Below the pieces are notes generated by a model. The model did not search any database, was not told the DNA's origin, and worked only from the letters and a program-made list of their open reading frames with translations. Of a stretch of 32,949 nt of DNA, positions 16,525 to 32,949 are shown piece after piece; the stretch's first letter is position 1, and each line of letters starts with the position of its first letter. The translations under genes were made by a program, and so were the position numbers. The stretch is from positions 1 through 32,949 of the forward strand of contig NZ_MPJW01000142.1 of assembly GCF_001945525.1 (NCBI RefSeq), given 5' to 3'. The stretch comes from Ileibacterium valens. Its GTDB lineage: Bacteria > Bacillota_I > Bacilli_A > Erysipelotrichales > Erysipelotrichaceae.

Positions 16525-16592
16525 TTTTCTGAAGTCAGACTCTGATTCTTTGATTGCTGATTTTTTTAAGAAATGATGAATTGGTGAATTTC

Positions 16593-16624
16593 AGCCGCAA
16601 GTCCTGTGGACAGGCGGCTTTTTT
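16593..16624 (+). terminator. Terminator of the PMI paralogue
   Basis: Stem AGCCGC (16593-16598) / GCGGCT (16614-16619) with an inner GTCC/GGAC stem and TGT loop, followed by T6. It ends 15 bases before the mutY -35 box. Confidence 0.9.
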
Positions 16625-16638
16625 CGTTTTTTGAAGAA

Positions 16639-16673
16639 TTGTCAAAAGAAGGATCGGTCGATATACTGTCCGG
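16639..16673 (+). promoter_or_regulatory. mutY promoter, predicted leaderless start
   Basis: -35 TTGTCA (16639-16644), exactly 17 bases, -10 TATACT (16662-16667), then GTCCGG and ATG at 16674. The usual +1 falls on the A of the ATG. There is no Shine-Dalgarno at the right distance; the only GGA (16651-16653) is within the promoter spacer. Confidence 0.75.
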
Positions 16674-17858
16674 ATGAATCCAACGTACATTAAAGAACAA
16701 TTTATTCAGAATCTTCTGATCTGGTATGAACGAAACAAGCGGGAACTTGCCTTTCGAAAAGATAAAAATCCCTATCGAATCTGGATTTCTGAAATCATGG
16801 CTCAGCAGACTCGCATTGAGACGATGATTCCTTATTTTGAACGCTTCATTCAGAAGTATCCTGATGTTAAAAGCCTTTCACAAGCAGACGATGATGAACT
16901 GATGGCTATGTGGCAGGGGCTTGGATACTATTCCAGAGCCAGGTCACTGAAAAAAGCGGCTATTATGATCATGGAAGAATACGATGGAGTTTTTCCCTTG
17001 AAAAAAGAAGAACTCAAAAAGCTGCCGGGAATCGGGGATTATACCGCTGGAGCGATTGCTTCCATTGCCGGCAGGCAAAAAGCCTCAGCCATTGATGGAA
17101 ATGTCATTCGAGTCTTTTCTAGACTATTTGAATTTGGCGAAGATCCTGGCAAGGCTTCAGGAAAAAAACAGATGACCGCTCTGGTTGAAGCCTTTTTGCC
17201 TGAAGCAGACTTATGCGGTGATTTCAATCAGGCGTTAATGGAAATTGGTGCATTAGTCTGTCTGCCGAAATCTCCTTCCTGCTCGTTTTGTCCGCTTGAA
17301 AAGTTCTGCCTTTCAAGAAAGTCGGGGAAACAGCTTGAATATCCAATGAAGAGCATAAAAAAGCCCAGAACGATTGAAAACAGGGAAATCTGGGTGATCG
17401 CCAGAGAATCGATGGAAAATAAGAAAGATCATTCACATGTATCCAGGGCTTCTTATGACATCAAAATTCAGAAGCGTTCAGAAAAGGGATTGTTAAGCGG
17501 ACTTTTTGAATTTGGAGAACAAAAGCCGCAAGGTAAAGAGTACAGAGTCTTTGATCTGGGAAGCTATATTCATATCTTTTCGCATAAGGAATGGCATATG
17601 AATGCAAAACTAGCCGTGATCTCCTATGAAGATTCAGAAAGACTCTGCCAACAGACAGATTCTTTGCAAAAGAAACCAGACCATGCTCAGTTTGTTCCAA
17701 TGGATGATATAGCGTCTGTTTATGCTTTGCCAACGGCATTTATGCCCTTTTTTAATAGGGCCAGAAAGATTTTAAACGATCAGGTCAATATGAATCAGAG
17801 TGATTCAATGACGATACAGACAATTGGATTGGAGAATGAAAAAGATGAATTCAAATGA
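16674..17858 (+). CDS. mutY: A/G-specific adenine DNA glycosylase MutY
   Basis: Removes adenine mispaired with 8-oxoguanine. It has catalytic Glu40 (SEIMAQQTR), helix-hairpin-helix LPGIGDYTAGAIASIA at 117-132, Asp141 in DGNVIRV, the [4Fe-4S] cysteines C196-X6-C203-X2-C206-X5-C212, and a MutT-like C-terminal domain that reads 8-oxoG (about 230-370). The length of 394 residues is usual. The start at 16674 agrees with where relatives begin (LLIWYERNKRELAFR at 14-28). A promoter ends six bases upstream, so the mRNA is predicted leaderless. Its end overlaps the HAD phosphatase gene by 14 bases, so the two are co-translated. Confidence 0.96.
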   Translation: MNPTYIKEQFIQNLLIWYERNKRELAFRKDKNPYRIWISEIMAQQTRIETMIPYFERFIQKYPDVKSLSQADDDELMAMWQGLGYYSRARSLKKAAIMIMEEYDGVFPLKKEELKKLPGIGDYTAGAIASIAGRQKASAIDGNVIRVFSRLFEFGEDPGKASGKKQMTALVEAFLPEADLCGDFNQALMEIGALVCLPKSPSCSFCPLEKFCLSRKSGKQLEYPMKSIKKPRTIENREIWVIARESMENKKDHSHVSRASYDIKIQKRSEKGLLSGLFEFGEQKPQGKEYRVFDLGSYIHIFSHKEWHMNAKLAVISYEDSERLCQQTDSLQKKPDHAQFVPMDDIASVYALPTAFMPFFNRARKILNDQVNMNQSDSMTIQTIGLENEKDEFK

Positions 17859-22152: not shown

Positions 22153-23257
22153 ATGATGGAACTTTTCGAACTTAAACAAATTATTTCTACTCACCTGGAG
22201 AAGTTGGACTCTCTGGGTGAGTCACTTTGACTTGCCAGGAAAAAGAGAAGAAATAAAGAAACTTGAAGATCAGACCATGGAAGATGGATTCTGGACTGAT
22301 CAGAAAAAGGCACAGAACGTCATCCGTAAGACCAACTCACTCAAAGATATCGTCAGCAGCTATGAATCGCTCAAAGAACAGTTTGACTCTCTGGAAGAAA
22401 TGGCAGAAGTACTAAAGACTGAGGATGATGAAGAATTGATGGACATGGCCGATGAAGAAGCGCAAAGCGCGGTTAAGGCCATGGATGAATTTGAGATTAA
22501 GGTTCTGCTTTCCGGTGAATATGATGGCAGCAATGCGATTCTGGAAATTCATCCTGGAGCCGGCGGAACGGAATCACATGACTGGGCGAATATGCTTTAC
22601 CGCATGTATACCCGCTATTGTGAGAAAAAGGGATTTAAGGTTTCTGTTTTGCAGTATCAGCCAGGTGAAGAAGCTGGAATTAAATCAGTGACTTTCCTGG
22701 TTGAAGGAGATAAGGCTTATGGCTATCTCAAAGGAGAAAAGGGTGTTCACCGCCTGGTTCGAATTTCTCCTTTTGATGCCGGAGCAAGAAGGCATACTTC
22801 CTTTGCTTCCCTTGAAGTGATGCCGCAGTTCAATGATGAAATCGAAATTGAAATTAAACCGGAAGATCTTCTGATTGAAACCAAACGGGCTTCAGGAGCT
22901 GGTGGTCAGCATATTAATAAGACAGATTCAGCCATTCGAATGGTTCATAAGCCAACCGGAATTGTAGCAACCTGTCAAAGCGGCCGCTCACAGATTCAAA
23001 ACCGTGAAGAAGCTTTAAATATTCTGAAATCCAGACTGCTGCAGCTCGAAATCGAAAACCAGCAAAAGAAGATTGCTGAACTCAAAGGGGAAACCCTCGC
23101 TAATGAGTGGGGCAGCCAGATTCGAAGCTATGTGCTGCATCCTTACTCCTTAATCAAAGACGTCCGGACCGGATATGAGACCAGTCAGGTTCAAAGCGTA
23201 CTGGATGGCGATCTCGATGGGTTTATCTGGGCTTATCTCAAATCGCAGATCCAATAA
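22153..23257 (+). CDS. prfB: Peptide chain release factor 2, with programmed +1 frameshift
   Basis: Terminates translation at UGA and UAA. The short first frame starts at ATG 22153 (AAAGGA seven bases upstream) and meets TGA at 22228-22230 after 25 codons. The junction CTT TGA C (22225-22231) is the classic RF2 slip site, so the product joins 22153-22227 to 22229-23257 (367 residues). The stimulatory Shine-Dalgarno-like run here is GGGTGAG three bases before CTT. By residue count of the joined protein, the anticodon-like SPF is at 205-207 and GGQ at 250-252, the canonical places. The frameshift makes RF2 synthesis self-regulating. A terminator follows. Confidence 0.97.
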
Positions 23258-28585: not shown

Positions 28586-29953
28586 ATGAACAACTTACAG
28601 AAATGGCAGAAATATGCCGAAATGAATCCGGAACAATCCCGGGAAAGCTTTATGAAGATCAGAGAAGACATTCTGAATTCACCATTACATTATTCAACTT
28701 ATGGCAGTGATGAAAAAGATGATATCTACACTGAAAGTCTGTATCTTCCAAAAATTTTTACTCAGAAAGATAAACAGAATTTTAAGGAAATCTGTAAAAC
28801 ATGCATTTCAATCTTTGACAAAATAGTCAGGGCTTATCGGAAAGATCCAGCAATTCGTAAAATTTTCCGATTCGATCCAGCACTTGAAAAAATGATTCTT
28901 CATGAACCGGGTTATCAAACTCCGATTCCAATGCTGAGAGTCGACATTTTTTATAATGAAGACACAGGTGATTTTAAATTCTGTGAATTCAACACGGACG
29001 GCACATCAGCGATGTATGAGAATGATACTATGGCAGAATTTTTTCAAAAAGAAAATGAAGCCTTTAAACACTTTCAGCCGGAAGTTGAATATATGAATCT
29101 GATGCAGCCCTGGGTTGAATCTTTTATGGAAGTCTGGAAACAGACGAAGGCTTCGAAGGATAAGGAAGTTCCAAGCGTAGTCATAACAGATTTTCTTGAA
29201 GATGCTTATTATCCTGAACTGGTCGCTTTTTGCGAACTCTTTAATCAAAACGGAATTCCATGCGAACTGGAGGATATCCGCAATCTGGATTATGATGGTC
29301 AGAATCTGTTTTCATCGAAAACAGGAACTCGATATGATGCCGTTTACCGCCGGGCGGTGACTAAAGATGTGATGAGCAATTATCATGACGTTCTGCCATT
29401 CTTAATTGCCTTAAAGGACAATAAAGTGATTTCAGTCGGTGATTTTCAGACTCAGATCATTCATTCCAAAATGATCAATGAAGCTTTGCAGTCAGAAGCC
29501 ATATTGGATCTTTTATCGGAAGGTGAAAGAGAATTTCTTAAAAAACATCTTCCGTATACGATGAACCTGAATTCAAAAACAGCGGCTAAAATTGTAAAAG
29601 ATAAAGACCGCTGGATCATTAAGCCAAGAGATTCGTATGCTGCCAAGGGCGTCTGGGCTGGCGTAGATGTTTCGACAGAGCTATGGAAAAAGCTGCTTCA
29701 CGACTTTAAAGATACGGACTATATCGTTCAGGAGTATATTCCTCATTATCTGAGTGAAAATATCGACTACACCAGACAGGATCATTTTATCCCTTATCAC
29801 AATATGACCGGTCTTTATGTGTATAACGGTAAGTTTGCAGGAGTGTATTCACGTCTTTCAGATTCTGGAATTGTTTCTACCCAGTACAATGAGCGCATGA
29901 TTCCGACCTTTTTCCTAAAGGAAAAAATGGATCAGGAAGTCATTGACGAGTAA
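28586..29953 (+). CDS. Glutathionylspermidine synthase-like ATP-grasp enzyme
   Basis: ATP-dependent amide-ligase fold of the glutathionylspermidine-synthase C-terminal family (PF03738-like). FCEFNTDGTSAMYEND near residues 130-145 is the family signature, RYDAVYRR lies centrally, and WIIKPRDSYAAKGVWAG near 350 is the nucleotide and metal lobe. The E. coli amidase half is absent; at 455 residues it is the stand-alone synthetase form common in Firmicutes, whose true substrate pair is usually unproven. No ribosome binding site precedes ATG 28586. The gene is monocistronic and ends before a terminator. Confidence 0.82.
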   Translation: MNNLQKWQKYAEMNPEQSRESFMKIREDILNSPLHYSTYGSDEKDDIYTESLYLPKIFTQKDKQNFKEICKTCISIFDKIVRAYRKDPAIRKIFRFDPALEKMILHEPGYQTPIPMLRVDIFYNEDTGDFKFCEFNTDGTSAMYENDTMAEFFQKENEAFKHFQPEVEYMNLMQPWVESFMEVWKQTKASKDKEVPSVVITDFLEDAYYPELVAFCELFNQNGIPCELEDIRNLDYDGQNLFSSKTGTRYDAVYRRAVTKDVMSNYHDVLPFLIALKDNKVISVGDFQTQIIHSKMINEALQSEAILDLLSEGEREFLKKHLPYTMNLNSKTAAKIVKDKDRWIIKPRDSYAAKGVWAGVDVSTELWKKLLHDFKDTDYIVQEYIPHYLSENIDYTRQDHFIPYHNMTGLYVYNGKFAGVYSRLSDSGIVSTQYNERMIPTFFLKEKMDQEVIDE

Positions 29954-32735: not shown

Positions 32736-32821
32736 CCAATGAAAACTCCAATAAGCATCTCCGATCGTATTCGAACTGAACCAAAGGGGCTGTTAAATTT
32801 CTGACAGTCCAAAAATAAAAA

Positions 32822-32858
32822 GAGGCACCTGATCCGTAATGGATGAGGTGCCTTTTTT
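32822..32858. terminator. IS-internal insulator terminator (right copy)
   Basis: Stem GAGGCACCT (32822-32830) / AGGTGCCTT (32846-32854) with one G-U pair at the base and the inner ATCC/GGAT stem in reversed order, followed by T6. It would stop transcription coming from the esterase side before the transposase. Confidence 0.8.
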
Positions 32859-32872
32859 GGTAAAATATGTTC
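32858..32872 (+). promoter_or_regulatory. Extended -10 promoter of the IS transposase
   Basis: TGG-TAAAAT (32858-32866) directly follows the terminator U-tract; six bases later is ATG 32873. The same arrangement is at 177-163 in the left copy. No -35 match and no Shine-Dalgarno. Confidence 0.5.
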
Positions 32873-32949
32873 ATGCTCAATAAACAAAATTACCAAACAC
32901 ACTATAACTCGATTCAGGGCCGTTTGCCACTGCTCCATTCTCTCTTCCC
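32873..32949 (+). CDS. Transposase, N-terminal 25 residues (partial)
   Basis: Starts MLNKQNYQTHYNSIQGRL and is open to the window edge; identical to the left copy except residue 2. The overlapping minus-strand ORFs are shadows. Family not recognised. Confidence 0.7.
   Translation, partial: MLNKQNYQTHYNSIQGRLPLLHSLF

Follow-up and report, generated by a model that had tools for sequence, protein, structure and literature searches.

The mutY start in the window

The window, i.e., the whole 32,949-nt stretch of DNA analyzed here, carries mutY downstream of a manA-like gene. The features around the mutY start are as follows.

16593 to 16625, + strand: intrinsic terminator closing the manA-like gene upstream of mutY, with its 3′ end 13 bp before the mutY -35
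16639 to 16644, + strand: predicted -35 hexamer TTGTCA, 5/6 matches to consensus
16662 to 16667, + strand: predicted -10 hexamer TATACT, 5/6 matches to consensus, 17-bp spacer to the -35
16674 to 17858, + strand: mutY, A/G-specific adenine glycosylase (394 aa; TIGR01084), with the predicted transcript +1 at the A of the ATG

The mutY product scores 291 bits against TIGR01084, above the cut-off of 286.5. A search for alternative ATG, GTG, or TTG codons upstream in the mutY frame returned none, and the next in-frame ATG lies ∼40 codons downstream, within the conserved domain; the start is thus unambiguous and the usual misannotation is ruled out. The TTGTCA-17-TATACT arrangement ending six bases before the ATG, as described in the original prediction, was confirmed at 16639-16667 and 16674. 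The six bases between the -10, which has no TG extension, and the ATG (16674-16676) are GTCCGG. The best Shine-Dalgarno (SD) duplex of mutY (-5.2 kcal/mol) is devoid of an AGGAG-type core, and no functional SD element is found.

The 16585-16636 segment folds with -18.2 kcal/mol (z = -2.85) into a stem (AGCCGC..GCGGCU) followed by UUUUU; a simple consensus terminator scan did not list this hairpin of the manA-like gene. Since this terminator precedes the -35, it should halt manA-like transcription, and mutY must have a promoter of its own in the last 45 to 50 bp before the ATG. As judged by sequence only, mutY is therefore the first gene of a transcription unit, separated by the terminator from the manA-like gene. 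Scanning for promoters returned 1 site at mutY versus 1.2 in the shuffled region, so the promoter match alone, i.e., without its spacing, is not significant. Because promoter-like matches are about equally common in shuffled sequence, and the upstream gene is co-oriented with mutY at a distance of 149 nt, we considered that mutY might be expressed mainly by upstream read-through or from a distal promoter, as a leadered SD-less mRNA in which the promoter match is incidental. We regard this explanation as quite unlikely given the stable terminator between the two genes, the conservation of the geometry across genera despite divergent MutY proteins, and a genome-wide spacing peak that makes coincidence improbable (both described below).

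Other genes in the window with the same layout

The original prediction also listed SD-less exceptions with a -10-like hexamer six bases before the ATG, and all of them were found as described.

1374 to 2135, - strand (start at 2135): yaaA, predicted leaderless, TTGACT-16-TAAACT-6-ATG (PF03883, E 2.3e-63)
28586 to 29953, + strand: ATP-grasp (glutathionylspermidine synthase-like) gene, predicted leaderless, extended -10, TGA-TATTTT-6-ATG
1 to 162, - strand (ATG at 162): 5′ portion of an ORF resembling an IS transposase, predicted leaderless, with a hairpin before TGG-TAAAAT-6-ATG
32873 to 32949, + strand (ATG at 32873): start of the second IS copy, again TGG-TAAAAT-6-ATG

The ATP-grasp gene product matches PF03738 with an E value of 1.7e-6, slightly under the family cut-off. 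A Pfam search with the 54-aa IS ORF fragment gave no match, and "transposase" is a name carried over from the original prediction. Both IS ends in the window belong to one element, with ∼40 matches in the assembly, so the window offers four independent cases rather than five. The SD duplexes of the three cellular genes (mutY, yaaA, and the ATP-grasp gene) are weak (-1.3, -5.2, and -2.3 kcal/mol, the value of -5.2 being that of mutY), and those of most other window genes range from -8 to -13.5 kcal/mol. The spacing-6 geometry is absent from the remaining weak-SD genes of the window (401-, 7266, 25237-, 25872-, and 31983). TANNNT occurs at spacing 6 ahead of 1.2% of internal ATGs; at this rate, chance alone would place it there in ∼0.3 of the 27 genes called in the window.

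Some further observations concern this stretch. The IS end (1-251, - strand, and 32784-32949, + strand) matches many contig ends among its ∼40 occurrences, indicating that the IS breaks the MAG. A hairpin (GGCACCTGATCC..GGATGAGGTGCC) and a T-run stand directly before the predicted leaderless start of the IS, and this hairpin could stop read-through into the transposase. The two frames of prfB (release factor 2) meet at about 22217-22235 (+ strand) in CTT TGA C, the classic site for programmed +1 frameshifting.

A genome-wide class of SD-less starts abutting the -10

The original prediction envisaged a regular class of leaderless genes with constant spacing and suggested aligning SD-less starts genome-wide and looking for TANNNT 12 bases upstream of the ATG. 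We did so in about 1.56 Mb of the same 2.74-Mb genome, where a hexamer-based gene finder, blind to SD and promoter signals, called 1170 genes. SD strength was scored as pairing with the 16S tail, and genes were taken as SD-less if pairing was weaker than -5 kcal/mol at every plausible start. Among the 172 SD-less ATG candidates, TANNNT occurs in 24 at spacing 6 and in 13 at spacing 7, compared with a mean of 3.0 at other spacings, i.e., the peak lies where it had been proposed. As controls, 691 SD genes yielded 2 cases at spacing 6 and 0 at spacing 7, and internal ATGs were preceded by TANNNT in 1.2% (spacing 6) and 1.8% (spacing 7). The peak withstood four SD cut-offs (-4 to -7), also with one start per gene, with P values for spacing 6 of 1e-12 to 1e-20; at the -7 cut-off the excess amounts to about 48 of 1168 genes (4.1%). 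These data support a genome-wide class of SD-less starts predicted to abut a -10 at 6 to 7 bp, which would comprise ∼4% of the genes. The class itself thus stood, but not the strict constancy of its spacing, which is 6 and, less often, 7.

Three properties that were not used for selection lend this class a promoter character. TGn precedes the hexamer in 12 of 36 members versus 7.5% in the control (P = 7e-6), and the G of the extended -10 is present in 64% of the class; the base at -1 is a pyrimidine in a fraction of 0.89, versus 0.55 of SD genes; and the upstream neighbor is divergent in 20 of 32 cases versus 181 of 656 (P = 7e-5). A pyrimidine just before +1 is seen at ordinary transcription starts. 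The -35 signal is weak, with at least four matches in 10 of 36 members versus 15% of controls, and we do not count it as proof. Two divergent gene pairs bear the geometry at both starts: RNase HIII/CvpA in this genome (L204:7174, - strand, and 7244, + strand), with 69 bp between the ATGs, and a pair in G031, which represents a different genus within the family (L240:2289, - strand, and 2344, + strand), with 54 bp between them. These distances leave hardly any room for leaders in either pair.

The same observations bear on whether TANNNT at -12 might act in translation initiation, as an AU-rich or S1-binding signal of a leadered mRNA, and not as a promoter element. An AT-rich upstream bias of non-SD genes has in part been ascribed to S1 (PMC5397173). 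Nonetheless, the promoter grammar of the class (extended -10 TG, fixed spacing, -1 pyrimidine, and first genes with divergent neighbors) and the two pairs without room for leaders render this alternative very improbable.

Conservation in relatives

In G031, TANNNT precedes 14 of 58 SD-less ATG candidates at spacing 6 and 5 at spacing 7, and a 9-position matrix recovers the peak in the present genome after training on G031, and vice versa. The pooled loci of other Firmicutes, a small sample, showed no spacing peak, with 1 of 27 SD-less ATGs at spacing 6.

The original prediction further proposed checking the conservation of the promoter-ATG spacing in relatives. At the mutY loci of its own family, TANNNT stands at spacing 6 or 7 in 13 of 24 relatives. 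Two of these are less clear-cut: L145, where four starts lie upstream, is doubtful, and L165 possesses an SD in addition. The geometry was not seen in the other 11, and a good SD is present in 6 of all 24 loci; the geometry was found in none of 5 sister-family loci and in none of 61 from other Firmicutes. MutY identity across these genera is only about 36 to 48% (aligned segments), which means that the geometry outlasts the sequence. Conservation of the predicted mutY promoter-start spacing across genera of the family, in about half of those sampled, is thereby supported. Terminator-like hairpins precede the mutY start in several relatives, e.g., L149.

In most cases, mutY of the sister family has the same kind of promoter (TATAAT), followed by 15 to 18 nt with GGTGAT or GAGGTTA, i.e., a very short SD leader. 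A comparable layout occurs at rex in both genomes (L228:16423 and L231:11850, both + strand), where the -10 is followed by 7 nt and then GTGATAA..ATG; the rex start may be either a leaderless GTG or an ATG behind an 8- to 9-nt leader with GGTGAT, like mutY of the sister family. Both examples suit a micro-leader at mutY of the window, with the true 5′ end several nucleotides upstream of the ATG. However, in its own family the bases separating the mutY -10 from the ATG contain nothing resembling an SD, and a spacing of 6 to 7 places +1 at the A or within 1 to 2 nt of it; we hold such a micro-leader to be hardly probable. When sought as a general class, micro-leaders with a GGTGA SD yielded few cases and no sharp peak.

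The interpretation that we favor, and consider very likely on the strength of these sequence comparisons, is that mutY has its own housekeeping-sigma promoter with +1 at the A of the ATG and is expressed as a leaderless message, as one of the ∼4% class. This promoter, dependent on the housekeeping sigma factor, would begin directly behind the manA-like terminator. Transcription from the A of the ATG would deliver an mRNA without a 5′ untranslated region, presumably translated leaderless, probably by 70S ribosomes recognizing the 5′-terminal AUG. Other members of the class would likewise have a -10, often TG extended, 6 to 7 bp before the start codon, an arrangement apparently present in at least one further genus of this family.

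Relation to known leaderless systems

This class is of the known TA-led leaderless kind, and the arrangement has precedents in streptococci and other bacteria. TA-led genes as described by Zheng et al. (2011; PMC3160421) are alike in having TANNNT about 12 bp before an SD-less start and, in low-GC Firmicutes, a TG peak before the -10. According to that survey, leaderless genes are predicted in 56 of 209 Firmicutes genomes at an average of 4.2%, close to the 4.1% estimated here; among Firmicutes they are reported mainly for Lactobacillales and Mycoplasma, and the available text of the survey does not mention the present family. Transcription start site mapping places leaderless mRNAs at 8 to 9% in Streptococcus pyogenes, S. 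agalactiae, and S. pneumoniae; 90% of those of S. agalactiae reportedly begin at the A of the AUG, and 81% of the S. pyogenes set is common with S. agalactiae, with 39 also in S. pneumoniae (PMC6431027, PMC4448216). Those mRNAs were mapped experimentally, whereas ours are predicted, and mutY is not named as leaderless in the available portions of these reports. Judged by the streptococcal figures and the 56 genomes of the survey, the earlier view that leaderless mRNAs are unusual for a Firmicute is overstated. Enterococci have <1% (PMC7724050) and Clostridioides difficile few leaderless mRNAs (PMC7438776). In Deinococcus-Thermus, a -10 region adjoining the ORF similarly gives rise to leaderless mRNA (PMC12340547), but in that group it is a dominant mode, accounting for about 40% of genes according to the survey (PMC3160421), and here a minor class.

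Our literature search for this kind of family retrieved no report on leaderless genes. As far as the literature searched shows, what is new here is thus a family with a leaderless class, together with the cross-genus conservation at mutY. With these findings, a Gram-positive family joins the streptococci and mycoplasmas as a group in which a leaderless class can be measured. They also single out mutY as a locus at which leader gain or loss can be traced: the promoter-start fusion is conserved across genera of the family, whereas in the sister family a promoter of the same kind is followed by a very short SD leader. Where gene finding relies on an SD, leaderless starts of this sort may be placed wrongly.

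Genes in the class

Pfam names in the set include DnaE, RecJ-like, RecU, DinB, RNase HIII, a DnaQ-type exonuclease, TmcAL, and Rex, along with regulators of the LysR, TetR, and MerR types. recU is in the leaderless set of both genomes, the G031 member being judged by its N-terminal sequence only. Of the leaderless genes examined (about 33), 7 serve replication/repair, versus none among 30 randomly drawn SD genes (P = 0.011, Fisher test); this small post hoc comparison provides only a lead. Information-storage genes are over-represented among leaderless genes in the survey of Zheng et al. as well (PMC3160421). It is conceivable, if doubtful, that the leaderless set of the family is enriched for replication/repair (mutY, dnaE, recU, recJ-like, dinB, RNase HIII, and the DnaQ-type exonuclease) and that its members are a conserved group, shifting jointly in translation when canonical initiation is impaired, e.g., under stress. 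A gene for NADAR, the DarT1-associated antitoxin (L118:12353-13243, - strand), is also among the predicted leaderless genes.
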